In this document: in pieces, positions 31,557-47,034 of the stretch
Layout: each line of letters starts with the position of its first letter
How positions within the stretch are numbered: the first letter of the stretch is position 1
From: Parascardovia denticolens DSM 10105 = JCM 12538
GTDB taxonomy: Bacteria > Actinomycetota > Actinomycetes > Actinomycetales > Bifidobacteriaceae
DNA: 64,000 nt
Reading direction: 5' to 3'
Assembly: GCF_001042675.1 (NCBI RefSeq)
Contig: NZ_AP012333.1
Span: 1,302,001 to 1,366,000 of the forward strand
Made by a program: the position numbers and the translations under genes
Notes under the pieces: generated by a model
Databases searched by the model: none
Seen by the model: only the letters and a program-made list of their open reading frames with translations
What the model was told of the DNA's origin: nothing

Positions 31557-31629
31557 ATGATCTCCTAGGGAACTCAGGGAACCGGGTCGCCATGCCCCAG
31601 TGGCAGACGTGAACCGGAAACCTTGAGTG

Positions 31630-32667: not shown

Positions 32668-35600
32668 GTTCCAATCCACGCTCCCCTTGCGGGGAGCGAC
32701 CCTCCAGGAGCATTACACCGACCCCGGCAAGGTATTTCAATCCACGCTCCCCTTGCGGGGAGCGACCCGTAGCGAGGATGGGGGTGCGCTTGTCGGCGTT
32801 ATTTCAATCCACGCTCCCCTTGCGGGGAGCGACCAGACATCTTCGACTTCCTTTCAAAAGTTGGAGTATTTCAATCCACGCTCCCCTTGCGGGGAGCGAC
32901 CCTATCTGACGGCGAAAAACCATATCAGGAATCCATTTCAATCCACGCTCCCCTTGCGGGGAGCGACCGGTGGGCCGGCTGAACCGTCTGGTGGCGGGGT
33001 TATTTCAATCCACGCTCCCCTTGCGGGGAGCGACTGGCGGCCGACACGTACGTGTGGAGCGTGTGGGTATTTCAATCCACGCTCCCCTTGCGGGGAGCGA
33101 CAGAGGGGCTTCAGGTTCCGGCAGTAGTCGATGAGATTTCAATCCACGCTCCCCTTGCGGGGAGCGACCGGGTGGGCCGACGTTTCCGGTGCTGTGAACA
33201 CAATTTCAATCCACGCTCCCCTTGCGGGGAGCGACCGGCGACGTGAAAAGTAAAAACGACCAGGACTTATTTCAATCCACGCTCCCCTTGCGGGGAGCGA
33301 CTCAGGCTCCCATCCTTGATGTTCCTTCCCAAAGGATTTCAATCCACGCTCCCCTTGCGGGGAGCGACTGGCGGGGTGCTTTCATCCAGGTGAGGATGTC
33401 GAGATTTCAATCCACGCTCCCCTTGCGGGGAGCGACAGGGAACTTCACCTCCGCGTGACGGCCGGTCAAGATTTCAATCCACGCTCCCCTTGCGGGGAGC
33501 GACGGGATAGTGTTATAATAGAACTATCAATCAATCAATTTCAATCCACGCTCCCCTTGCGGGGAGCGACATCGACAGGGAGCACCGGTGCTACTGCGAG
33601 TATCGATTTCAATCCACGCTCCCCTTGCGGGGAGCGACCCGTCGGGGTTCACGCTGTTGAGGCTGTTCCCGTCATTTCAATCCACGCTCCCCTTGCGGGG
33701 AGCGACCGTCACCCACCTCGGCCTCGCAGACAGCCACCTCATTTCAATCCACGCTCCCCTTGCGGGGAGCGACGTGCGCCCGTATGGGAATACGGCGACC
33801 TTCAATCTATTTCAATCCACGCTCCCCTTGCGGGGAGCGACCTCCGACTCCAACCCGGCGGCGGGGACAGCGGAATTTCAATCCACGCTCCCCTTGCGGG
33901 GAGCGACCACACGCTGTTCTTGTTGACGCCGAGGTGGTTGGCATTTCAATCCACGCTCCCCTTGCGGGGAGCGACCAGCGCATTGCCGTACGCCGTGGCG
34001 TTGCTTCTCAAATTTCAATCCACGCTCCCCTTGCGGGGAGCGACACTCCGGATAACCGATTTATCAGTTTGGCTTGGATATTTCAATCCACGCTCCCCTT
34101 GCGGGGAGCGACAGACAGGCTGGAGCTGACCTGCGACCAGTGGGCATTTCAATCCACGCTCCCCTTGCGGGGAGCGACTAACGTCGACGCCAAGACCAGG
34201 CTTCTGGTCAAATTTCAATCCACGCTCCCCTTGCGGGGAGCGACCTCAAAAGCAACCACAGCGTCGACTACGCGAGACATTTCAATCCACGCTCCCCTTG
34301 CGGGGAGCGACGCGGAGGATTGACGAGACCCGCCTCCGGGGATTATTTCAATCCACGCTCCCCTTGCGGGGAGCGACTACTGCCCGTCCTGCGGCAGGAA
34401 GGTGCGCCGGGTATTTCAATCCACGCTCCCCTTGCGGGGAGCGACTCACGCCATTCTGTGTAGCATATGTTACATTTCTATTTCAATCCACGCTCCCCTT
34501 GCGGGGAGCGACCCAGGATTCCAAGTCAGCGATGACCTTTTCGCGATTTCAATCCACGCTCCCCTTGCGGGGAGCGACCAAGACGGATGTCGACGACTCC
34601 ACCAGCGAAGGATTTCAATCCACGCTCCCCTTGCGGGGAGCGACCAATCAAGGTGAGCTTGCTCCCCTCCCCGGTCCAATTTCAATCCACGCTCCCCTTG
34701 CGGGGAGCGACCCGGCTATCCGGAGCAATCCATTAAGGGGTGTATTTCAATCCACGCTCCCCTTGCGGGGAGCGACGAAGAGCGTCTTCCAATCATCCTT
34801 ATTACCATAATTTCAATCCACGCTCCCCTTGCGGGGAGCGACACTCCGTTTCCGTGAAATGCAGGACGAACCGTTATTTCAATCCACGCTCCCCTTGCGG
34901 GGAGCGACCATCATGGCAGAGAACGGGCGTGCCGTCAGCCAATTTCAATCCACGCTCCCCTTGCGGGGAGCGACTGGATGCGGAATAAATATGCGGTATA
35001 TTTATTCTATTTCAATCCACGCTCCCCTTGCGGGGAGCGACCGCAAATGTAACTTAGATTATTAAGCATGTACCATTTCAATCCACGCTCCCCTTGCGGG
35101 GAGCGACTGTTGATGACGAGGATGCGGCCGGTGGGTGTCATATTTCAATCCACGCTCCCCTTGCGGGGAGCGACGATATGATCAGATAAGCTACTAAGGA
35201 GGATGGCAATTTCAATCCACGCTCCCCTTGCGGGGAGCGACACGTATGATAGGCGACAAAGCATGGGACCTCGACATTTCAATCCACGCTCCCCTTGCGG
35301 GGAGCGACCATCGCCGACCTGGAGGCCTGGTTGGCCAAGCAAGATTTCAATCCACGCTCCCCTTGCGGGGAGCGACCCATGGTAGGTGTCCTTTCTGGTT
35401 AGTTTTTACCATTTCAATCCACGCTCCCCTTGCGGGGAGCGACCCATCAGCCTGGCGACTATGGTCCGTAATGGTCATTTCAATCCACGCTCCCCTTGCG
35501 GGGAGCGACTTCGCCGCGTCGGCCCGGTCGCCTCGTCGTCGGGATTTCAATCCACGCTCCCCTTGCGGGGAGCGACTAAAAAGTTGCGATAGAGAGCCCG

Positions 35601-38600
35601 GCGAGTGGGATTTCAATCCACGCTCCCCTTGCGGGGAGCGACTGATAACAACGAGGACAGTATCAATATTCACGCTATTTCAATCCACGCTCCCCTTGCG
35701 GGGAGCGACCACCGGCTATCCGGAGCAATCCATTGAGGGATGTATTTCAATCCACGCTCCCCTTGCGGGGAGCGACCCCTGCTCAAGAGGGCCGGAAAAG
35801 AAGGATATTGATTTCAATCCACGCTCCCCTTGCGGGGAGCGACCGAAAAGCCTGCCCCTCGTGTATAATAGGGAGCTATTTCAATCCACGCTCCCCTTGC
35901 GGGGAGCGACCGTCCGTGATGAGCCGCTCCCCTTTCTCTTCCGTCATTTCAATCCACGCTCCCCTTGCGGGGAGCGACCTCAATCGGTGGATTTTTATGA
36001 CCTACACCTCAATTTCAATCCACGCTCCCCTTGCGGGGAGCGACCCGTGGCAGTTTGTCTTTTATGTAGGTCGGACTTTATTTCAATCCACGCTCCCCTT
36101 GCGGGGAGCGACACCGTTCCACTCTGTTTGCCTTGAGAGCGGGAGAATTTCAATCCACGCTCCCCTTGCGGGGAGCGACTGCACAGTTTTAAAAAGTATG
36201 CGATGCCGGGGATATTTCAATCCACGCTCCCCTTGCGGGGAGCGACTGGATGCGGAATAAATATGCGGTATATTTGTTCTATTTCAATCCACGCTCCCCT
36301 TGCGGGGAGCGACAACATCAAAAGTATGCATAGGGGCCAAACATACAATTTCAATCCACGCTCCCCTTGCGGGGAGCGACAGGTGGAGCCGGAAAAAATC
36401 GACATCAACGGTCTATTTCAATCCACGCTCCCCTTGCGGGGAGCGACACCTGAGCACGCTCCTGGGCGTCATCCTTGTCCCATTTCAATCCACGCTCCCC
36501 TTGCGGGGAGCGACTTGAGGTATCAAGGAGGTTAAGATGCGTTTACAGATTTCAATCCACGCTCCCCTTGCGGGGAGCGACCGATGTGTGGGATCTCGAC
36601 CGATGGGATGACGTATTTCAATCCACGCTCCCCTTGCGGGGAGCGACTGGGGTTTGGCGGGGCCGGTCACCAAGTCTCGGCATTTCAATCCACGCTCCCC
36701 TTGCGGGGAGCGACCATGGTCATGCGGGTTGCCCGTTACTCGCCGTTATTTCAATCCACGCTCCCCTTGCGGGGAGCGACCTTGGATCAGGACAGTCTCG
36801 TTCTTGACAGGACATTTCAATCCACGCTCCCCTTGCGGGGAGCGACTTTTCTCGCATATGGCCCCATGCGTAGCGAGACGATTTCAATCCACGCTCCCCT
36901 TGCGGGGAGCGACGTCCTTTGACAGATTTTTTGGATAATGTCGTGTGATTTCAATCCACGCTCCCCTTGCGGGGAGCGACCCAGACCGACCAGGGGCCGG
37001 TCACCAAGTCTCGGCATTTCAATCCACGCTCCCCTTGCGGGGAGCGACGGATCTCCCCTTGTCTCATGCCGGTCAACAGACGATTTCAATCCACGCTCCC
37101 CTTGCGGGGAGCGACCATCGTGGATTCCGGCCACTCATCCAGCAGCTCATTTCAATCCACGCTCCCCTTGCGGGGAGCGACGCATCAGTATCAGCTTGGT
37201 AAGGATGGTGATAAAATTTCAATCCACGCTCCCCTTGCGGGGAGCGACGGGCCTGCCGGATGGGCGTCTGCTGGCTGGTGGTATTTCAATCCACGCTCCC
37301 CTTGCGGGGAGCGACTTACCGTGTCTGATAAAACAAGGTTGGAGACTTGATTTCAATCCACGCTCCCCTTGCGGGGAGCGACAGTTCCAAAAATGGTTCG
37401 TGCTTCTACCGGGGTATTTCAATCCACGCTCCCCTTGCGGGGAGCGACCCGTCAAGCCAGTCGGCGACGTCGACAAAGTCGCGATTTCAATCCACGCTCC
37501 CCTTGCGGGGAGCGACCTGGGCCGACCCCGGAAAGAGACACGCTCAGAAATTTCAATCCACGCTCCCCTTGCGGGGAGCGACCGTCAAGCCAGTCGGCGA
37601 CGTCGACAAAGTCGCAATTTCAATCCACGCTCCCCTTGCGGGGAGCGACCGCAGTAGCAGTCCAAGTTGGTCCCATAGCACGGATTTCAATCCACGCTCC
37701 CCTTGCGGGGAGCGACCGCTTCCGGCGAAGCCGAACCCGTCGCCCGTGCTATTTCAATCCACGCTCCCCTTGCGGGGAGCGACCCGTCCACGGTGGGGAA
37801 GGTTTACCGGGTTGAATTTCAATCCACGCTCCCCTTGCGGGGAGCGACTTGCAGGAGGCCATCGGCAAGCAGACCGCCGTGCTATTTCAATCCACGCTCC
37901 CCTTGCGGGGAGCGACAGGTTATGCGATCCAATGGCCCGGCAATGTGTGGATTTCAATCCACGCTCCCCTTGCGGGGAGCGACTGAGTTCCTCGGCATGG
38001 ATAATGTATTTGAGTTATTTCAATCCACGCTCCCCTTGCGGGGAGCGACCGCCGGGCGGGATAAAAGCCCCGCACCGGGTCGTATTTCAATCCACGCTCC
38101 CCTTGCGGGGAGCGACATGAAAACAACGTGAAGGACGATGAGAATCAGGAGATTTCAATCCACGCTCCCCTTGCGGGGAGCGACTCTTCAAACCTATCTT
38201 ATAAAAATACGGGTTGTTATTTCAATCCACGCTCCCCTTGCGGGGAGCGACTTCAAAGGCGTTTCATTTCCTCCTATCCGGTCATATTTCAATCCACGCT
38301 CCCCTTGCGGGGAGCGACGGCTGCCCCAGCTCAATCATATACGATAACACAAATTTCAATCCACGCTCCCCTTGCGGGGAGCGACATAACATTGTCATGC
38401 AGCTTTTCGCATTCTACGAATTTCAATCCACGCTCCCCTTGCGGGGAGCGACCGCTGATAAAACCGATTGAAGGTGAATAATCATATTTCAATCCACGCT
38501 CCCCTTGCGGGGAGCGACCACTTCAATGATAGGACTGGTAATCCAATCAGTTATTTCAATCCACGCTCCCCTTGCGGGGAGCGACCAGGATGAGTACAAA

Positions 38601-38787
38601 CCTGAGTATTTCGTCGATATTTCAATCCACGCTCCCCTTGCGGGGAGCGACAGGGACGGGGGGAATGTTCATCGCAATGTCTTCAAATTTCAATCCACGC
38701 TCCCCTTGCGGGGAGCGACTTTGACCTTGTTGTATGTGAGCCGGTTTATGATTTATTTCAATCCACGCTCCCCTTGCGGGGAGCGAC
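32668..38787 (-). CRISPR. Type I-C CRISPR array, 92 repeats and 91 spacers
   Basis: The repeat is 33 bp. On the transcribed minus strand it starts GTCGCTCCCC and ends GTGGATTGAAAT, with a perfect 8-bp stem (CGCTCCCC/GGGGAGCG) and a GCAA loop, as in type I-C. I counted 92 repeats with starts at 32668, 32734, 32801 and so on to 38755, and spacers of 32-36 bp, mostly 33-34. All repeats look identical except the leader-distal one (32668-32700), which has two changes near its 3' end. The leader side (38788 onward) adjoins cas2, so the newest spacers have the highest coordinates. Three spacer pairs are near-identical and a fourth pair shares 23 nt. Counts were made by eye and could be off by one. 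Confidence 0.98.
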
Positions 38788-39025
38788 CGCAGAAATGGAC
38801 AAATAATCTCAGAAATCAAGACACGAATCCATCTCTATTCCTTTATTCTACCTATAAGAGGCAGAGAATTGACGCTTTTGTCATAAAATGTCTAAGACAA
38901 ATAAGGCGCAATTACTAAAAACCATTTAGCTCATATTAAAACTTGGTGCGAAGATCCCAGGATTTCTATGACAGCTTCACCTCCGCACAACCGTAATGTT
39001 TCGCTTCCCATCTGGTCCCGAAACC
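38788..39025 (-). promoter_or_regulatory. CRISPR leader
   Basis: This AT-rich gap of 238 bp lies between cas2 and the first repeat, transcribed towards the array. It should hold the pre-crRNA promoter and the integration signals next to the first repeat. TTTAGTAATTG and TTATTTGTCTTAG tracts lie near 38890-38925 (minus strand), but I cannot fix a promoter. Confidence 0.7.
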
Positions 39026-39319
39026 TTAGATCATCATAATGCCATCCACCGGTATGTGCCGTTGAACACCTCGGTATTCTATTTTATTCGAGTATTTACT
39101 CCCAAGATTATAAAACCTTAAACTATCCACTTCCTCATCCATGATTTCGAACAAATCGTGTTTAAGCAAAAGATAATCCGCAGGAGTCACTTCACATTCG
39201 AAAACGCTGTTTTGTACTCTTTGACCAAATTTTGAGCACACCTTCGCGACCCTACGTAATCGCCTTTGCCCTGCAACCTCCATCGTATTCACATCATAAG
39301 CGACTATGACCATCATCAT
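39026..39319 (-). CDS. cas2: CRISPR-associated Cas2
   Basis: The protein has 97 residues and forms the Cas1-Cas2 spacer integrase as a structural dimer. The beta-1 strand MVIVAYDVNT contains the conserved Asp. It is followed by RRLRRVAKVCSKFGQRVQNSVFECEVT and DSLRFYNLGSKY. The length and ferredoxin-like pattern fit the type I-C Cas2. It begins 6 bp after cas1 and is the gene next to the leader. Confidence 0.95.
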   Translation of the reverse strand: MMMVIVAYDVNTMEVAGQRRLRRVAKVCSKFGQRVQNSVFECEVTPADYLLLKHDLFEIMDEEVDSLRFYNLGSKYSNKIEYRGVQRHIPVDGIMMI

Positions 39320-39325
39320 ATTCCT

Positions 39326-40357
39326 CTACTTCCATAAAAATGACGGATATCCATCCAAATCTCCACGGATGACACGGGCAAGGAGGAGCGCTTGAGCATA
39401 GGGGACCAACCCCCATTGAATCTTCTCTTTGAGAAAAGGATGGGTCAACGTTTCCATTTTCCTCTTCTGCCACTCTGCAAGAAGCGTCTTCTTCCCGCTT
39501 TCATTCAGAAAAACACCGCCATTTTCCCGATGCTCGAAATCCTTTCCTGTGATGATACCCGTGTTCACAAGAGCAAGCACAAATCTATCGCCCAGAGGAG
39601 CACGCAGCTCCTCCATCAAGTCCAGAGCCAAGGATTCACGCCCTGGCCTGTCAACATGGAAAAATCCCGCATAGGGGTCCAGCCCCACCCCGTGAAGAGC
39701 TGCCGCGCAATCTCGCTCAATCAGCACATAGATGAAAGACATCAGGGCATTCATACTATCCATTGGAGGTCTTCTGGAACGATCCTCGAAGAAGAAATCC
39801 TCCTTATTGCGAAGAATCAGCTCATCATAAGCGGAAAAATATTGTTTAGCCGCCAAACCTTCAATGCCACGAAGCTTATCGAGACTGTTTGCATTCCTTG
39901 CGGATTTTATACTTTGAGCCAACTCTGCGCTAGCTTGCGACACCAAATCTATGTTAATCCTCAGTCCATGATCACGAATCGCTCGTTCCATCACCCAACG
40001 AGCGTTGAATATCTTACCTATGATCATATTCCGGGCAATCGGCAGAGCCCTCTCCTCATCTTCTGAAATCTCAAACTGTTCTTTACGCAACAGAATATTT
40101 CTATCAGCTTCGTCAAAAATCGAACAGTAATATCGACCGCGTGGAGAGAAAAAAGACAGGCTGATTCCCATTTCCGCGCATTTACCCATCAGTGCCGGGG
40201 AAGCGCCGCCATAGGTGAAGCTAAGAATGGATTCCAACGACCGCAAAGGAACTTTGCCAAGTTTTTTATCACCTTGAAGGATAAGAACATTCTCATCCTC
40301 AAGAGCCAAATAAGCATCCTCAGTCATAACAAATAACGTATTGAAGAGTTTTCTCAT
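39326..40357 (-). CDS. cas1: CRISPR-associated Cas1 (type I-C)
   Basis: This spacer-integration nuclease has 343 residues. The N-terminal beta domain has FVMTEDAYLALEDENVLI. The catalytic helical domain has LDKLRGIEGLAAKQYF (metal Glu), GLDPYAGFFHVDRPGRESLALDLMEELR (His and Asp), and the ending QWGLVPYAQALLLARVIRGDLDGYPSFLWK. The sequence is that of the type I-C subgroup. It is one base from cas4. Confidence 0.96.
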   Translation of the reverse strand: MRKLFNTLFVMTEDAYLALEDENVLILQGDKKLGKVPLRSLESILSFTYGGASPALMGKCAEMGISLSFFSPRGRYYCSIFDEADRNILLRKEQFEISEDEERALPIARNMIIGKIFNARWVMERAIRDHGLRINIDLVSQASAELAQSIKSARNANSLDKLRGIEGLAAKQYFSAYDELILRNKEDFFFEDRSRRPPMDSMNALMSFIYVLIERDCAAALHGVGLDPYAGFFHVDRPGRESLALDLMEELRAPLGDRFVLALVNTGIITGKDFEHRENGGVFLNESGKKTLLAEWQKRKMETLTHPFLKEKIQWGLVPYAQALLLARVIRGDLDGYPSFLWK

Positions 40358-40358
40358 C

Positions 40359-41051
40359 CTACCTTTCCTCCTCAGAGTCGAGCATGGAATCCATATAAGA
40401 GCTCACCGATGGTATGGTGTATAGCTTCGGCAGACATAAATCCCGTAAGGAGCAGGCTTTGCATGCTTTTGTCGGCTTGACTTTCGGCGTTGCTCCACGT
40501 TCGAACAACCGATGCATCTCTGCGAACATCATCGTTACTTTTTCTCGCAGACCAGCCTCAAGCGGTACGACCTCTCTCCGCTTCACCTTTTGATAGAACA
40601 AGGCTCCCTCTGCGATATCGCAAGAGAGCATCTCTTCCAGACACATGGCCTCCGCACATAATTGGAGCCGGTCTGCGTCATTGTCTTTGGACTGCCCATG
40701 TTTATACTCAATCGGATAAGGAATCCACCTCCCCCTGCGCCCAATGAGAGGAACCCCTTGATTGGATTTATGGAATTCCACGACATCACAATCTCCCGAA
40801 ATACCAAGCCTGCGAGAGAAAACCCGTAGATCTCTAAGGGTCAGTACATCTCCTCTCAATTCTGATTGGGCGTAATCATGCGCACGCGAATGTTCCAATC
40901 GACCAGACATAGTCAAATAGTTCTCTGACCACACTTGCTCGATGTGAATCAACGCCCATTGCCGCCGACAAAACGAAAAGTGCTGGATGCCGGAAAGGGC
41001 CAGCCATTGCTCTTCAGGATACTCGCTTGGCCCTTCCCGAACAATATCCAT
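40359..41051 (-). CDS. cas4: CRISPR-associated Cas4 nuclease
   Basis: This RecB-like exonuclease has 230 residues and processes prespacers and checks the PAM in type I-C adaptation. The first Fe-S cysteine is in HFSFCRRQWALIHIEQVW. The nuclease core has the IEYKHGQSKDNDADRLQLCAEAMCLEE motif (QRxQ-like helix). The last three cysteines are in KACKACSLRDLCLPKL. It sits between cas7 and cas1, the standard type I-C order. Confidence 0.94.
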   Translation of the reverse strand: MDIVREGPSEYPEEQWLALSGIQHFSFCRRQWALIHIEQVWSENYLTMSGRLEHSRAHDYAQSELRGDVLTLRDLRVFSRRLGISGDCDVVEFHKSNQGVPLIGRRGRWIPYPIEYKHGQSKDNDADRLQLCAEAMCLEEMLSCDIAEGALFYQKVKRREVVPLEAGLREKVTMMFAEMHRLFERGATPKVKPTKACKACSLRDLCLPKLYTIPSVSSYMDSMLDSEEER

Positions 41052-41056
41052 GCGTA

Positions 41057-41896
41057 TCAGCGACCTTCCAATTTTTCGAACTGCAATCCCGGAATCAGAC
41101 TCTGCTCAATACTGATATTCCCATCAGAATCCACCTTTACCGCCCTACGCACCTTTGCGGATGAATACTGACCACTCTTACTATCATGAGAGAACCATAC
41201 AACCCAAAGGACCTCCATCGATCCTGAGGGCCGTGCAGAACTCTCATCATTTTCAAACAAGGTGACGAGGGCATGCTTAATAGCCTCTGCGTCTTCATCC
41301 GAGAACCCGGTTTTTTCAGCAAGCTGTGGGCTGATGCTCCCAAACGTAGTATAGATGGCACGGCCAGAAACACGATACTTCATACCCATGGTGTCCGGAG
41401 ATTTCTTACCTGTATCAGTCGTCTCGCTATTCACGGATTTAGTGATCTGAATATCATCAATCGCCACCGGTGAAGTGGAAAAAGCCGGCTGTATAGTAAC
41501 AGGACCGCGCACTCCCAGAGAGACCTCATCGACATCCTGTGCCTTTTTGAAAGCAAACACCTGACCGAATGCTCGCACATCAAACCACTGCCCGCATACC
41601 GCGTTCCGAACAAATTCCTTGTTTTTCTGTTCGTCCTTTGGTAATTCCTTCAAGAAAGAATTGAACCGATCCGATAATGACTTCTTCCCATCATCAGCTC
41701 GATCATCAGATTGGACGAAGATGCGTTTACCATCATCCTGAAGACGATTACGAATCTTCCGTTTCAACGCCACATCGGATACCTCACCGTATCCTTCCGA
41801 CGTAGTGCGAGGACGATTCCCGTTGAGCGGATCTCCATTAGGATTCGCGTTTTCCGCGCTGAAAACTAGCGCAAAATCTATCTTATTTTGCAGCAT
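41057..41896 (-). CDS. cas7c: Cas7c (Csd2), Cascade backbone subunit
   Basis: The protein has 279 residues and polymerises along the crRNA spacer in the type I-C Cascade. Family marks are FALVFSAENANPNGDPLNGNRPRTTSEGYGEVSDVALKRKIRNRLQD at the N-terminus and SLGVRGPVTIQPAFSTSPVAIDDIQITKSVN in the thumb region. The start follows AAGGAGTAAGATTCAC (minus strand). A 54-bp gap separates it from cas8c. Confidence 0.95.
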   Translation of the reverse strand: MLQNKIDFALVFSAENANPNGDPLNGNRPRTTSEGYGEVSDVALKRKIRNRLQDDGKRIFVQSDDRADDGKKSLSDRFNSFLKELPKDEQKNKEFVRNAVCGQWFDVRAFGQVFAFKKAQDVDEVSLGVRGPVTIQPAFSTSPVAIDDIQITKSVNSETTDTGKKSPDTMGMKYRVSGRAIYTTFGSISPQLAEKTGFSDEDAEAIKHALVTLFENDESSARPSGSMEVLWVVWFSHDSKSGQYSSAKVRRAVKVDSDGNISIEQSLIPGLQFEKLEGR

Positions 41897-41950: not shown

Positions 41951-43864
41951 TCATGAGTTTACCGTTGCAGCTTCTTTCCTTTCCTTCGCCTTTTCCATGG
42001 AATATCGACGCTGGCAAGAAAAGCCCAGAAGGAAAGCGGGCGAAAGCGGAGAGTTATCCTCAAAGTCGTCACCATCGAAAAGGGCGACGACATCATCGAT
42101 ATCATTCTGAAAATAAGGCGCACCGTTACTAGCACCAATATAGGGGACAAGCTGTTTGTAAAGAGTCAACCACGTCGTACTCGGCTTTGCCACAAAATTC
42201 GACATTAGCTTCACCGCGTTGGTTGGTCTGGTTCCTTGAATCCCCTGTTTATACAGGACATTATTTTCGAATCGATCCGCTAAGGCCAATAACCGACCAT
42301 ATAGGTAGTCACGGTCTTTTCTTGATGTGTCCAGTTGCATCATTTTTTCCTTTCGCTCGGAACTCATTGGATTACTTGACTGTAATGCATCATCAATGAA
42401 GGATTTTTTCCATAGACTGCATGTCACTTCAAAAGATCGCCACCATTCCTTGAGATTATCGGGGCCGAAACTCATCGGTCGGGTAGCTCTATGGAAGGCG
42501 GACTCCAAAATTGCTTTGGGCATGCGCCTATTGCCAAACATGCACTCAATGAGTTGTTGCTTGACAATGCGCGAAAAGCGTTGATAGTTCTTGCTAGATC
42601 TGTCGCCTTCTACGCTATATGCGCTATTAATGATATCTCTATACGATGGAGCTCCGATATAAGTCACAACTTTTTGATTGGCTTTGTCAAATCGACTGAG
42701 AGGCCAGGCCATATCCACATGCCATTGCATGAGTTGTTCAAAGTATTGACTTTCTTCGAATTCACGGTAGAAAGTCACTCCCAGACGTCCAGACGTTGCT
42801 GCATCGAGAATGACCAAGACTATGGTTTTATAATGGTTGCTCAACACTTTGGGATTGCCGAAGCCACGAAGAAGACCACCGAATTGGCGAGCATAATCAT
42901 AATCTGTTTCGACGAGCGCATCTTGAATGTTATGTATTCCTTCGTCATCTGCAAGCAGTGCCTCAACCGCATCAAGCGAATTTGCACTTGGCTCCACAAT
43001 CTTTTCATTCGGAGTTTGCACGGCCCATAAAACGATGGCTTGAGTGTCCGTAAGCGTACCATGGGTATTCACCAACCACTTCAGAGTCAGATGAATCAGC
43101 TGCGAAGTATCCGCATCGATACGCAAAGCGTCATCTCGACCGGCGAATCTCCCTCGAAATGTGAAATTCGCGTTGTCATTAGCAGACACGAGCTTGGAAT
43201 TCGCCGCAGTTTTTACTATGTTCTTGGGAAAATTCGCCGCCTGAGAGACAAACGGCAACCCTAGCATATCACGGCCGTTTTGATCCACGTTTTTCTTGAG
43301 ATATGTCCGCCATAGCTTGCGGATTTCGTCCGAGTTCTCCACATGCGGGTCTCCTCCGCCGGGGACTTCTACCGCAAACCGTACTCCCGTTTTCTCATCT
43401 TTAAATCTTCCTTTATTATCCTTCTCAAGAAGATCGGTACCGTACTGCTTCGCATCCTCAGAAATGCTATGTTTCAATACATACCAGTAAATCGCGTTGA
43501 GATAGACATTATCCGCTTTCCACCGTGAAAGCTGATCAAGGTAAAGATCGACTTTTTCTCCGCCAATCTCCCTATCTAAATATTGGAGCTGGTCACACAA
43601 CGGGTGAGGAACAGGTTTGCTCGTCCGTCCCGATGACTGTTCGCTACATGGAATAACAATCTGTTTTGGCTTGGCGCCTTTCTCGATCCGTATCAGTTCC
43701 CCGTCACTATCAATTGTCACACAAATCTGCGTTTTTAGAATGGTGCAGTTCAGAGGAAGAAGCACATTCCCAACGCCTTCCTCTCCATTGTCAGTAGCTT
43801 CTTCTTGGCCGGCTACCGATTGAATGGCGTCGTATGTTTGTATAAGGTTCGACCACAAACTCAT
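41951..43864 (-). CDS. cas8c: Cas8c (Csd1), Cascade large subunit
   Basis: The protein has 637 residues and recognises the PAM and opens the target duplex in type I-C. Csd1-like segments are WSNLIQTYDAIQS at the start, RFAVEVPGGGDPHVENSDE, FVSQAANFPKNIVKTAANSKLVSANDNANFTFRGRF and FLLGFSCQRRYSMEKAKER at the end. In type I-C an internal translation start within this gene often makes the small subunit Cas11c. I could not confirm one here. It overlaps cas5c by 4 bp. Confidence 0.94.
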   Translation of the reverse strand: MSLWSNLIQTYDAIQSVAGQEEATDNGEEGVGNVLLPLNCTILKTQICVTIDSDGELIRIEKGAKPKQIVIPCSEQSSGRTSKPVPHPLCDQLQYLDREIGGEKVDLYLDQLSRWKADNVYLNAIYWYVLKHSISEDAKQYGTDLLEKDNKGRFKDEKTGVRFAVEVPGGGDPHVENSDEIRKLWRTYLKKNVDQNGRDMLGLPFVSQAANFPKNIVKTAANSKLVSANDNANFTFRGRFAGRDDALRIDADTSQLIHLTLKWLVNTHGTLTDTQAIVLWAVQTPNEKIVEPSANSLDAVEALLADDEGIHNIQDALVETDYDYARQFGGLLRGFGNPKVLSNHYKTIVLVILDAATSGRLGVTFYREFEESQYFEQLMQWHVDMAWPLSRFDKANQKVVTYIGAPSYRDIINSAYSVEGDRSSKNYQRFSRIVKQQLIECMFGNRRMPKAILESAFHRATRPMSFGPDNLKEWWRSFEVTCSLWKKSFIDDALQSSNPMSSERKEKMMQLDTSRKDRDYLYGRLLALADRFENNVLYKQGIQGTRPTNAVKLMSNFVAKPSTTWLTLYKQLVPYIGASNGAPYFQNDIDDVVALFDGDDFEDNSPLSPAFLLGFSCQRRYSMEKAKERKEAATVNS

Positions 43865-44580
43865 TTTTCATCCTCCCCAACAAGGTGCATATTCTTCCCA
43901 ATCGTGAACTCTTTCGCCTTGATCTTTTCATGTGACCGAATCACCCTGGAATCAAGCTGCTGCGAATCAGTCCGAGGAAACTCGATTATTCCATCTTTCA
44001 TGACGGGAGTCCAAAAACGTGCCAAAAAGTCCTGGTCTGCATTCTCATCTGGATAGGAAAAACTGTGGAACATGTATCCTAAGTTCCACTCTCCATAAGA
44101 GTCATAAAAGCCAGGCTCTTCCCCGAAAACACATGGTTCTACATAACCTTGGCATTCTCTGGTCCCAAGAAAGACATCACGTCGGCCACCTTTTTCCACA
44201 GAACGTAAAGCGATTTGATGATGCTTATTCTCATCGCGATCACCAGCGAGTTCAGGGCGCTGATTGTTCCATTCGAAGTGAGCACGAATTTGATATTTGA
44301 CGTCTTTAAGATACGTATAGTAGGAAAGATCATTCCCGCCATTATATTTTATCGGTCGAATACCCTTACTCTCAGTTTGCACACGGTTCATGACCCTTAC
44401 AGCGTCGATTATCCAGATAATTGTTGGCTTCCAATAGATGCTTTCGACCATACCCTTCAAAGCCTGGTATGTGGGTACTTGATAGGAAAATTTCTCCCCT
44501 CCGACCCGCGTTGTGGCTTCCGAGAACAATGCATACCGCCCTGATATTGTGAATTCAATCGAATTCCTATGCTTCTGCAT
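43861..44580 (-). CDS. cas5c: Cas5c (Cas5d), crRNA-processing endoribonuclease
   Basis: The protein has 239 residues. In type I-C, which lacks Cas6, this subunit cuts pre-crRNA in the repeat and caps the 5' handle. It has the Cas5 N-terminal block FTISGRYALFSEATTRVGGEKFSYQVPTYQALKGMVESIYWKPTI and a conserved TRECQGYVEPCVFGEEPGFYD. The stem-loop repeat in the array is its expected substrate, leaving an 11-nt handle by analogy with characterised Cas5d. It lies between cas3 (9-bp gap) and cas8c. Confidence 0.95.
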   Translation of the reverse strand: MQKHRNSIEFTISGRYALFSEATTRVGGEKFSYQVPTYQALKGMVESIYWKPTIIWIIDAVRVMNRVQTESKGIRPIKYNGGNDLSYYTYLKDVKYQIRAHFEWNNQRPELAGDRDENKHHQIALRSVEKGGRRDVFLGTRECQGYVEPCVFGEEPGFYDSYGEWNLGYMFHSFSYPDENADQDFLARFWTPVMKDGIIEFPRTDSQQLDSRVIRSHEKIKAKEFTIGKNMHLVGEDEK

Positions 44581-44589
44581 GTATCCTCC

Positions 44590-47034
44590 TCAATACATTT
44601 GTAAAGGCATTGGCGCCTCAACCGCTAAGCCGTACTCTTCGTTATAGTACTCTTGGTCAAGAACATATATTTCAAACGTGTCATCGACAAGATCAATTGC
44701 ATGAGATTCGCGTAAGGATTGTTCCTCCCATTCAAAAAGCGAAATTGTATAATCTTGCAGATTATGTAACGCCTTATAGCGAGTATCCATATCGGATACG
44801 GAAAGGAGTTCCAGTAACTCTCCTGAATCTCCATACGGCACTATGACGTTACATGCTGCGCCAGGAATAAGATGAAAATTATCGCTTACCGTCTTGAACG
44901 CCTGTGCGTAATAGTAGGGAAAATCCGCTCCCCTGCGATTTTTGTATGTTCCTCGCCACATCCGATTTCGTGCGAGCAAATCATACGCAGAGGTATGGAA
45001 TCCCTTCAATGGATAATCCATCTTACTGAATTGCTTCCGGTCATCGGGTTGAAGTCTTGCGAAATAACGACGATAATACTCCGTAAGCATGGCGTCGGAT
45101 AGCAAATCCTCATCGGGATATTCCCTGATCAGCTGACTCATCAATTCTTTGCCAAGCTTGATATCAGGCAAATATGATAAACCCTTCTCATCCTTGACCG
45201 GGAAAACGTATACATTCTTGGGAGTCGGAGACTCTCCATTGCGGTTGCATCGCCCCGCGGCCTGCAATATGCTATCCAGCCCTGCCATCGCGCGGACAAC
45301 GCAAGAAAATGAGATATCGACGCCGGCTTCAATCAGTTGTGTGCTAACGCAGATGATAGGTTTTGCCTCAGAAGATTTAGATGAATTTCGAATATGATTC
45401 AATTTGTCTTTCCTGTGCTTGCCGCACATGGAAGTGCTCAAATGGATAAGATCGAATTGCTTATCTTCATCTAATTTCCGCAAGGCCCGGTAAATGTTTT
45501 TCGCCTTAGATTTGAGATTTACGATAATCAGACAATTTCCATTCTCTCTCGCCCGGTCAAATGCAAATTCAGCGAGTTCGTCACAATCCTTATCTTTCGT
45601 AGAAGCAACAATATTGGTTCTTTTGAAAAGACCTAAATCATGCTCATTCAACTTTATGAGGTTTGGCTCTGAGGCTAAACATAAATTATCTCGATTCGTC
45701 TGCTCCAATAGTGGTTGCGTCGCCGAGCATAACAATATTGTCGAATCAAGGATTTCTGATAGGAAGCTAACGATTTCATTGAAAAGATTGATGGTATCGG
45801 TAGGCAAAGATTGAATTTCATCGAAGATGATGACGCTCTCGGCCATGTTATGAAACTTACGTAGGTTTGTCCCTCTAGCTGACATTATCGTTTCCAAGAA
45901 TTGAACCATTGTCGTCACTATGATGGGATTATCCCATTGCTCTGCAACCAGTTTCCGCTTCTTCGACTTCGCGCTTTCCTCTTCCTTCTCCTCATCAGTA
46001 CGCTCTTTCGTAATCTCTTCAATCGTTTCATTCATCGCACTTGAATAATGTTCGAGAATCAAATCATTATTCTCAGACAGGTCCAACATATCACGAAACG
46101 TTTGCGAAGTTTGCGTTGTAATGGACAAATATGGAATGACATAAATGATTCTTCGCTTACCTTGTTTTTGCGCATGCCGCATGGCGAAGTTCAATGATGC
46201 CAAAGTTTTCCCACCACCTGTTGGCACCGCCAGTTTATAAATCCCTGTCTTCCTGTCACTCGCCTGTCGACATGCTTGTGAAATCTTGCTTCGGATGGCA
46301 TTGATGGAAGTTGTCGAATCAAAACCTGACATCTTTTTATCCAACTTGGAGATAAGTTCTTCCCACTGGACGATTTTCGGCTGATAAGTTGTACGGCTTT
46401 CGAATGATGCCGCATCTGTTCGATCCGCATCAACAAGACGCGAATATATATACTTTGCCAACAGTCCAAGGTAGAAAAACTTACTCTCACCGCTGAGCTG
46501 ATTCCCCTGAGCATTTCTGATTTCGCTCATTTTAGTCCAAAAGGATCCGATTTTGTCAGTTGCTTCTAAGAATAACCTGCTTATTTGCGGTTGAAGGTCA
46601 TTCAAGTTACGCTTGACTTCATTATACGAATATTTCTCACCTTGCTTATTCTCAGCCGAAAAATTATCAAAAAACGACTCCATTCCATCTTGATTCACGC
46701 AGTCTGGTAGCTCACCATGGTGCTTGGAAATGACAAGTTCAAGTAACTGCTGTGCTATCTTCGCATACCCGTTTTGGGCATCAAGGTCATTGATCATGAA
46801 AGCGCCCTGCCAGGCATGAATAACGGATCCTCTGATTCCATCATCAGATAGCAAATAATCTTGGAAATTTTTGCTTGCCTTACCGGCATCATGAAGGAAG
46901 GCAGCCAGCCGAGCTAAAGATGAGAATTCACCCTCAAATGCCCCGGATAGTGCAGCCGCGCCAGAAAGATGGCTCTGGAGCGTTTGGGTCCTTCCCGATT
47001 GATCTCTGCGAGCAAGCAAATCCTCCATGATCAT
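44590..47034 (-). CDS. cas3: Cas3 nuclease-helicase (type I-C)
   Basis: The protein has 814 residues and degrades DNA marked by Cascade. The N-terminal HD nuclease domain has RLAAFLHDAGKASKNFQDYL and later HHGELPD histidines. The SF2 helicase has Walker A KLAVPTGGGKTLASLNFAM, the DExH-like FDEIQSLP, SAT in LLCSATQPLLEQ, and motif VI LQAAGRCNRNGES. All key residues look intact. It is the first gene of the cas operon. GGAGGCGGA precedes ATGATCATG, and the upstream gap to the tRNA is 89 bp. Confidence 0.96.
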   Translation of the reverse strand: MIMEDLLARRDQSGRTQTLQSHLSGAAALSGAFEGEFSSLARLAAFLHDAGKASKNFQDYLLSDDGIRGSVIHAWQGAFMINDLDAQNGYAKIAQQLLELVISKHHGELPDCVNQDGMESFFDNFSAENKQGEKYSYNEVKRNLNDLQPQISRLFLEATDKIGSFWTKMSEIRNAQGNQLSGESKFFYLGLLAKYIYSRLVDADRTDAASFESRTTYQPKIVQWEELISKLDKKMSGFDSTTSINAIRSKISQACRQASDRKTGIYKLAVPTGGGKTLASLNFAMRHAQKQGKRRIIYVIPYLSITTQTSQTFRDMLDLSENNDLILEHYSSAMNETIEEITKERTDEEKEEESAKSKKRKLVAEQWDNPIIVTTMVQFLETIMSARGTNLRKFHNMAESVIIFDEIQSLPTDTINLFNEIVSFLSEILDSTILLCSATQPLLEQTNRDNLCLASEPNLIKLNEHDLGLFKRTNIVASTKDKDCDELAEFAFDRARENGNCLIIVNLKSKAKNIYRALRKLDEDKQFDLIHLSTSMCGKHRKDKLNHIRNSSKSSEAKPIICVSTQLIEAGVDISFSCVVRAMAGLDSILQAAGRCNRNGESPTPKNVYVFPVKDEKGLSYLPDIKLGKELMSQLIREYPDEDLLSDAMLTEYYRRYFARLQPDDRKQFSKMDYPLKGFHTSAYDLLARNRMWRGTYKNRRGADFPYYYAQAFKTVSDNFHLIPGAACNVIVPYGDSGELLELLSVSDMDTRYKALHNLQDYTISLFEWEEQSLRESHAIDLVDDTFEIYVLDQEYYNEEYGLAVEAPMPLQMY

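Follow-up and report, generated by a model that had tools for sequence, protein, structure and literature searches.

How does a bacterium come to hold, within a single CRISPR array, two spacers that are the same save for one base, and could that base be the trace of a phage that slipped past its own record? The question is raised by a window of 64,000 nucleotides (by which we mean the whole stretch of Parascardovia denticolens DNA that was analysed), where one array carries a 34-nt spacer at 34975–35008 on the minus strand (AGAATAAATATACCGCATATTTATTCCGCATCCA) and another, also of 34 nt, at 36247–36280 on the same strand (AGAACAAATATACCGCATATTTATTCCGCATCCA). We number spacers from the leader side and positions within a spacer in the orientation of the crRNA, with position 1 at the PAM side; in these terms, the two are #57 and #38, and their sole difference is at position 5, which is T in the older #57 and C in the newer #38. 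A preliminary description of this DNA had spoken of two 34-bp spacers one base apart, had placed the difference at crRNA position 5 in the seed, and had called the variant copy the newer because it lies closer to the leader; parsing of the array bears out the coordinates, the single difference, the orientation and position, and the order of the two.

The array itself (32668–38787, minus strand) is made of 92 copies of a 33-nt repeat, GTCGCTCCCCGCAAGGGGAGCGTGGATTGAAAT when read on the crRNA (minus) strand, with 91 spacers of 32–36 nt between them. Only one repeat is degenerate, that at 32668–32700, which terminates in GGAAC and forms the trailer end; at the high end lies a presumed leader (38788–39025, minus strand), recognized by position only as the gap between the array and cas2. 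Beyond it, all on the minus strand, stand cas2 (39026–39319; TIGR01573, E=6e-17), the type I-C cas1 (39326–40357; TIGR03640, E=1e-131), cas4 (40359–41051; TIGR00372, E=3e-32), cas7/csd2 (41057–41896; TIGR02589, E=2e-90), cas8c/csd1 (41951–43864; TIGR01863, E=7e-64, at 216.4 bits slightly below the cut-off of 218.65), cas5c (43861–44580; TIGR01876, E=1e-77), and cas3 with its HD and helicase parts (44590–47034; TIGR01587 and TIGR01596). With all these genes beside the array, six of them above the NCBIfam cut-offs, the locus is a complete and ordinary type I-C CRISPR-Cas system. It shares with other type I-C systems of the Bifidobacteriaceae the gene order cas3-cas5c-cas8c-cas7-cas4-cas1-cas2, a 33-nt repeat ending in GTGGATTGAAAT, and a TTC PAM; what sets it apart is not the system but the array, with its length and its wealth of variant pairs.

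One spacer, #26, has an informative target, a tyrosine-recombinase (integrase) gene in a relative within the Bifidobacteriaceae (L035:7943-7976), which it matches with mismatches at positions 4, 7, 19 and 21. That target lies directly 3′ of a TTC, and the match therefore supports the TTC PAM, the orientation of the array and the origin of its spacers in mobile elements. Together with the degenerate repeat at the low end and the cas operon and presumed leader at the high end, it tells us that we are reading the array in the correct direction. Flanking the array on its other side is a gene for ribosomal protein L31, with an L31-Actinobacteria ribosomal protein leader (Rfam RF03158) upstream of it at 31578–31624 on the minus strand.

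When all 91 spacers are compared with one another, four pairs stand out, with scores of 33, 31.5, 27 and 23, and the next pair, an unrelated one, scores 12. The agreement of #38 and #57 at 33 of 34 positions (score 31.5) is thus not chance. The two are 19 spacers from each other and share no neighbour on either side; their equal length is uninformative, since 38% of random spacer pairs in this array share a length, and length therefore leaves room, for this pair, for a duplication. The other three pairs, absent from the preliminary description, are more telling. Spacer #18 (37583–37616, minus strand, 34 nt) is the newer version of #20 (37449–37483, minus strand, 35 nt), from which it differs at position 1 and in length; #46 (35710–35743, minus strand, 34 nt) is the newer version of #61 (34712–34743, minus strand, 32 nt), differing in length and at two positions, 4 and 9; and #27 (36981–37015, minus strand, 35 nt) is identical to the older #32 (36648–36681, minus strand, 34 nt) through positions 1–23, after which the two are unrelated. 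All four pairs retain the same PAM-side start, and all four sit among neighbours that differ, with no block duplication. Because their lengths or 3′ ends are unequal and their neighbours different, the three sister pairs are separate insertions from one PAM-side start and not duplications. For #38/#57 we infer what unequal lengths make plain in the sister pairs. The pattern of #27/#32, 23 nt in common and the rest unrelated, is what one would expect from two mosaic phages with one common module.

Our answer to the first half of the question, to which we would assign a probability of about 0.8, is that #38 and #57 are two separate acquisitions of the same protospacer, with the same PAM, from related versions of a single mobile element, which was most likely a phage. 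Judging from the order of the array, an element with T at position 5 would have been sampled to give #57; eighteen later spacers, still in place, would then have been added; and a relative with C at position 5 (and G opposite it in the target strand) would have infected the lineage, whereupon Cas1, Cas2 and Cas4 would have sampled the same site again to give #38. This array would hold at least three further instances of the same course, with #18 following #20, #46 following #61, and #27 following #32. In each case, the older crRNA would match the newer target less well, for three pairs because of their seed differences and for #27/#32 because nothing matches after position 23.

Did the change at position 5 help the second element evade #57? 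Laboratory work has established both seed escape and priming, and the type I seed, reportedly described by Semenova in 2011, is taken here as positions 1–5, 7 and 8. The laboratory cases of seed or PAM escape with primed adaptation involved known phages or plasmids, whereas here we have the spacer record alone, from which we infer escape. In type I systems, a single seed mismatch can stop interference and yet permit the uptake of new spacers, according to work cited in a paper on type I-E mismatches (PMC13122317). We lean slightly toward the view that the seed change did help the second element past #57.

The kind of mismatch tempers that view. At position 5, the crRNA of #57 is predicted to meet the C5 allele in an rU-dG wobble. 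Sensitivity in type I-E is greatest at positions 1, 2 and 4, and a dG is tolerated best opposite rU, more so than opposite rA or rG (PMC13122317); a mild effect is accordingly to be expected of rU-dG at position 5. For #18/#20, the predicted mismatch is rC-dA at position 1, which in type I-E gives slow target loss (PMC13122317), and for #46/#61, position 4 is predicted to be rC-dA and position 9 rU-dG. By the type I-E measure, then, #18/#20 would be the better candidate for escape than #38/#57 in this array.

Another property of this protospacer is its fold. In spacer #57, the arms of an inverted repeat pair perfectly over 10 bp around a 5-nt loop, and inverted repeats of at least 10 bp occur in only 2 of 3119 other type I-C spacers. 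The position-5 change breaks the crRNA hairpin (from −6.6 to −2.3 kcal/mol), and the hairpin of the other strand survives it by way of a U-G pair (−8.0 kcal/mol for both alleles). We considered whether the restoring or breaking of this palindrome could explain the variant, and with one hairpin lost and the other kept, it does not discriminate among the explanations. The protospacer may be a phage hairpin or operator, for which the change could be neutral; equally, the looser fold could make the crRNA more effective. Three of the six reading frames through the protospacer are open, and the change is synonymous in one of these.

If escape is at work in such pairs, it might be seen more readily in many arrays than in one, and a survey of about 7,150 spacers bears on this. 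It covers 3333 type I-C spacers (91 of them from this window) in arrays of Bifidobacteriaceae and of GTDB genomes from a mix of phyla, and 3820 type I-E spacers from Bifidobacteriaceae and other Actinomycetales; a pair was defined by the same spacer start and one to three differences, in the same genome and without block duplication, with related triples reduced to their nearest pairs. With the window excluded, 25 of 61 differences within genomes fall in the seed, where 13.2 are expected (p=0.0004), and 20 of 36 pairs have a seed difference, where 11.9 are expected (p=0.003). The excess holds without position 1 (p=0.0006), without the richest array, L223 (p=0.014), and without adjacent pairs (p=0.0009), and a sham seed at positions 25–31 is depleted in differences. 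The last set, gathered after the rule had taken shape, has 13 of its 33 differences in the seed, with 7.2 expected (p=0.015). Taken by themselves and with the window left out, the type I-C arrays have 5 of 15 differences there (p=0.18), which is not significant.

Pairs drawn from different species serve as a control, for there no shared older spacer could have done the selecting. Only 4 of their 21 differences lie in the seed, with 4.4 expected, and thus no excess is seen; the control is small, and its direct contrast with the within-genome pairs is borderline (Fisher p=0.058). An excess within genomes that is absent across species is just what escape-driven re-acquisition predicts, and as a statement about the class, such re-acquisition is reasonably supported. 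Seed escape behind #38/#57 is plausible, with its statistical support coming from the class. The preliminary description had read the pair as re-acquisition from a phage escape mutant; the same-start re-acquisition, the seed position, the order and the class-level seed excess all speak for that reading, and against it stands that no target carrying either allele was found in the collections searched, which are described below.

The strongest competitor to escape accepts two acquisitions and denies the older spacer any part in the second: the two alleles would be neutral variants standing in a phage family, whose favoured site happened to be sampled twice. Identical sites are indeed re-acquired in many arrays, also at different lengths. 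Among 168 pairs of identical spacers, 135 are adjacent or block duplications, and 33 are neither, 7 of these differing in length; one site can thus be taken twice without mutation, and escape is not required. In some near-duplicate pairs, moreover, every difference lies outside the seed or the spacing is codon-like (L159 18/23), and the change at position 5, mild as a wobble, synonymous in an open frame and harmless to the hairpin of the other strand, could be neutral. What standing variation does not predict is a seed excess within genomes, and that excess is seen (p=0.0004) and is missing from the cross-species control. In the present array, too, each of the three full-length pairs has a seed difference (at position 5, at position 1, and at position 4 with 9), where 0.81 would be expected (p=0.017), a result that is suggestive by itself and was what prompted the seed hypothesis. 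We hold standing variation to be a tenable account, at somewhat less than even odds.

Could the array instead have made its own variants? Copying within it, by recombination or gene conversion, followed by a point mutation, would suit the equal length of #38 and #57, and the many adjacent and block duplications just counted in other arrays show how often spacers are multiplied. Such copying would not yield the unequal lengths or 3′ ends of the sister pairs, however, and it fits poorly with two spacers that are so far apart and differ in both flanks, so that we regard it as improbable. In other type I-C arrays as well, near-identical pairs are mostly unequal in length, as is expected of separate events and not of duplications. 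Errors of insertion, in which end processing or gap filling by the repeat creates differences on the PAM side and so mimics the seed signature, would explain why differences cluster at positions 1–5, near a repeat. The far end of the spacer is as close to a repeat and has no enrichment, the pattern is absent from the cross-species pairs, and the 33 non-adjacent identical pairs are free of such errors, all of which makes this account distinctly improbable. As for a one-base error of sequencing or assembly, a single-base difference within a long repeat array naturally invites the thought; the genome, however, is a single contig of 1,890,857 bases, 99.93% complete, and the unequal lengths and mosaic ends of the sister pairs are impossible as one-base errors, and we give such an error very little credence indeed.

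Phages carrying either allele were sought in several collections. Exact cores (19–22 nt) of #38/#57 have no genuine match in 2.9 million IMG/VR contigs, and the exact cores of all four pairs find nothing there. One IMG/VR contig (L182) matches a 19-mer of PAM plus seed and diverges immediately after it, and is put down to chance; another (L256, of 36% GC) matches a 19-mer from the 3′ half and has 10 mismatches in the first 14 positions, and it, too, is put down to chance, even though a TTC stands at the place equivalent to the PAM. Degenerate patterns for two possible peptides encoded by the protospacer gave no match. The whole array, set against INPHARED and PLSDB, found just the CRISPR repeats of other arrays or weak matches, and single spacers found only partial, low-scoring matches in INPHARED. 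Across 189 Bifidobacteriaceae genomes, #38/#57 occur at up to three mismatches in their own array alone, and when all 91 spacers were run against these genomes with BLAST, no target for the pair came up. Since most phages of the genus are unsampled, the missing targets carry little weight.

Near-identical repeated spacers are not new. They were described in 2026 from type I-E and I-G arrays of Bifidobacterium animalis subsp. lactis, where, as here, the repeats are identical or a few bases apart, adjacent or distant, and were sorted by positions 1–8 (PMC12915315). Here the system is type I-C, unequal lengths show separate acquisition, and seed enrichment is tested against a control, of which the parts of the B. 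lactis paper that we draw on describe none (PMC12915315). In the open-access literature, we found no study that tests pairs of this kind for seed enrichment with a control, a search that does not settle the absence of one.

What would be gained if escape is the right explanation? The older member of a pair would record the blocked allele and the newer the one that passed, so that escape positions could be read without the phage; and if the seed change caused the re-sampling, such pairs would reveal the mutations that let wild phages past a natural crRNA. That phage seed escape can be read, across type I systems, from near-duplicate spacers within a genome is an idea to which we give just under an even chance, and its signature, the seed excess, can be checked on many sequenced arrays. 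The interest lies more in this general signature than in #38/#57 alone. For the present locus, the gain is four sites with two recorded versions of one target.

A few further observations concern individual spacers and arrays. Spacer #22 (37316–37349) matches the organism's own chromosome (G000:C1:191850-191883, or L033:11851-11884) except at position 1, inside an ORF of 487 aa that has no Pfam or NCBIfam match. Genes for a relaxase, an integrase and a D12 methyltransferase lie in the region, which is probably an integrated conjugative element, and the resident copy has ACG in place of the TTC PAM, which would account for its tolerance. Among the arrays surveyed, L223 (G715:C1:1631000-1646500), of type I-E and from the other Actinomycetales, holds nine near-duplicate pairs, mostly with seed differences, and clusters of several variants of a single site. 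A type I-C array of 227 spacers (L163, G129:C6:395500-415000) has several spacers in common with the arrays of other species, exactly or with few differences. In one genome (G112), a site adjacent to a start codon (AAAGGAAAACACGCATGAGC) supplied three spacers in two arrays, namely spacers 2 and 48 of L173 and spacer 17 of L174, and these acquisitions differ at positions 9 and 21.
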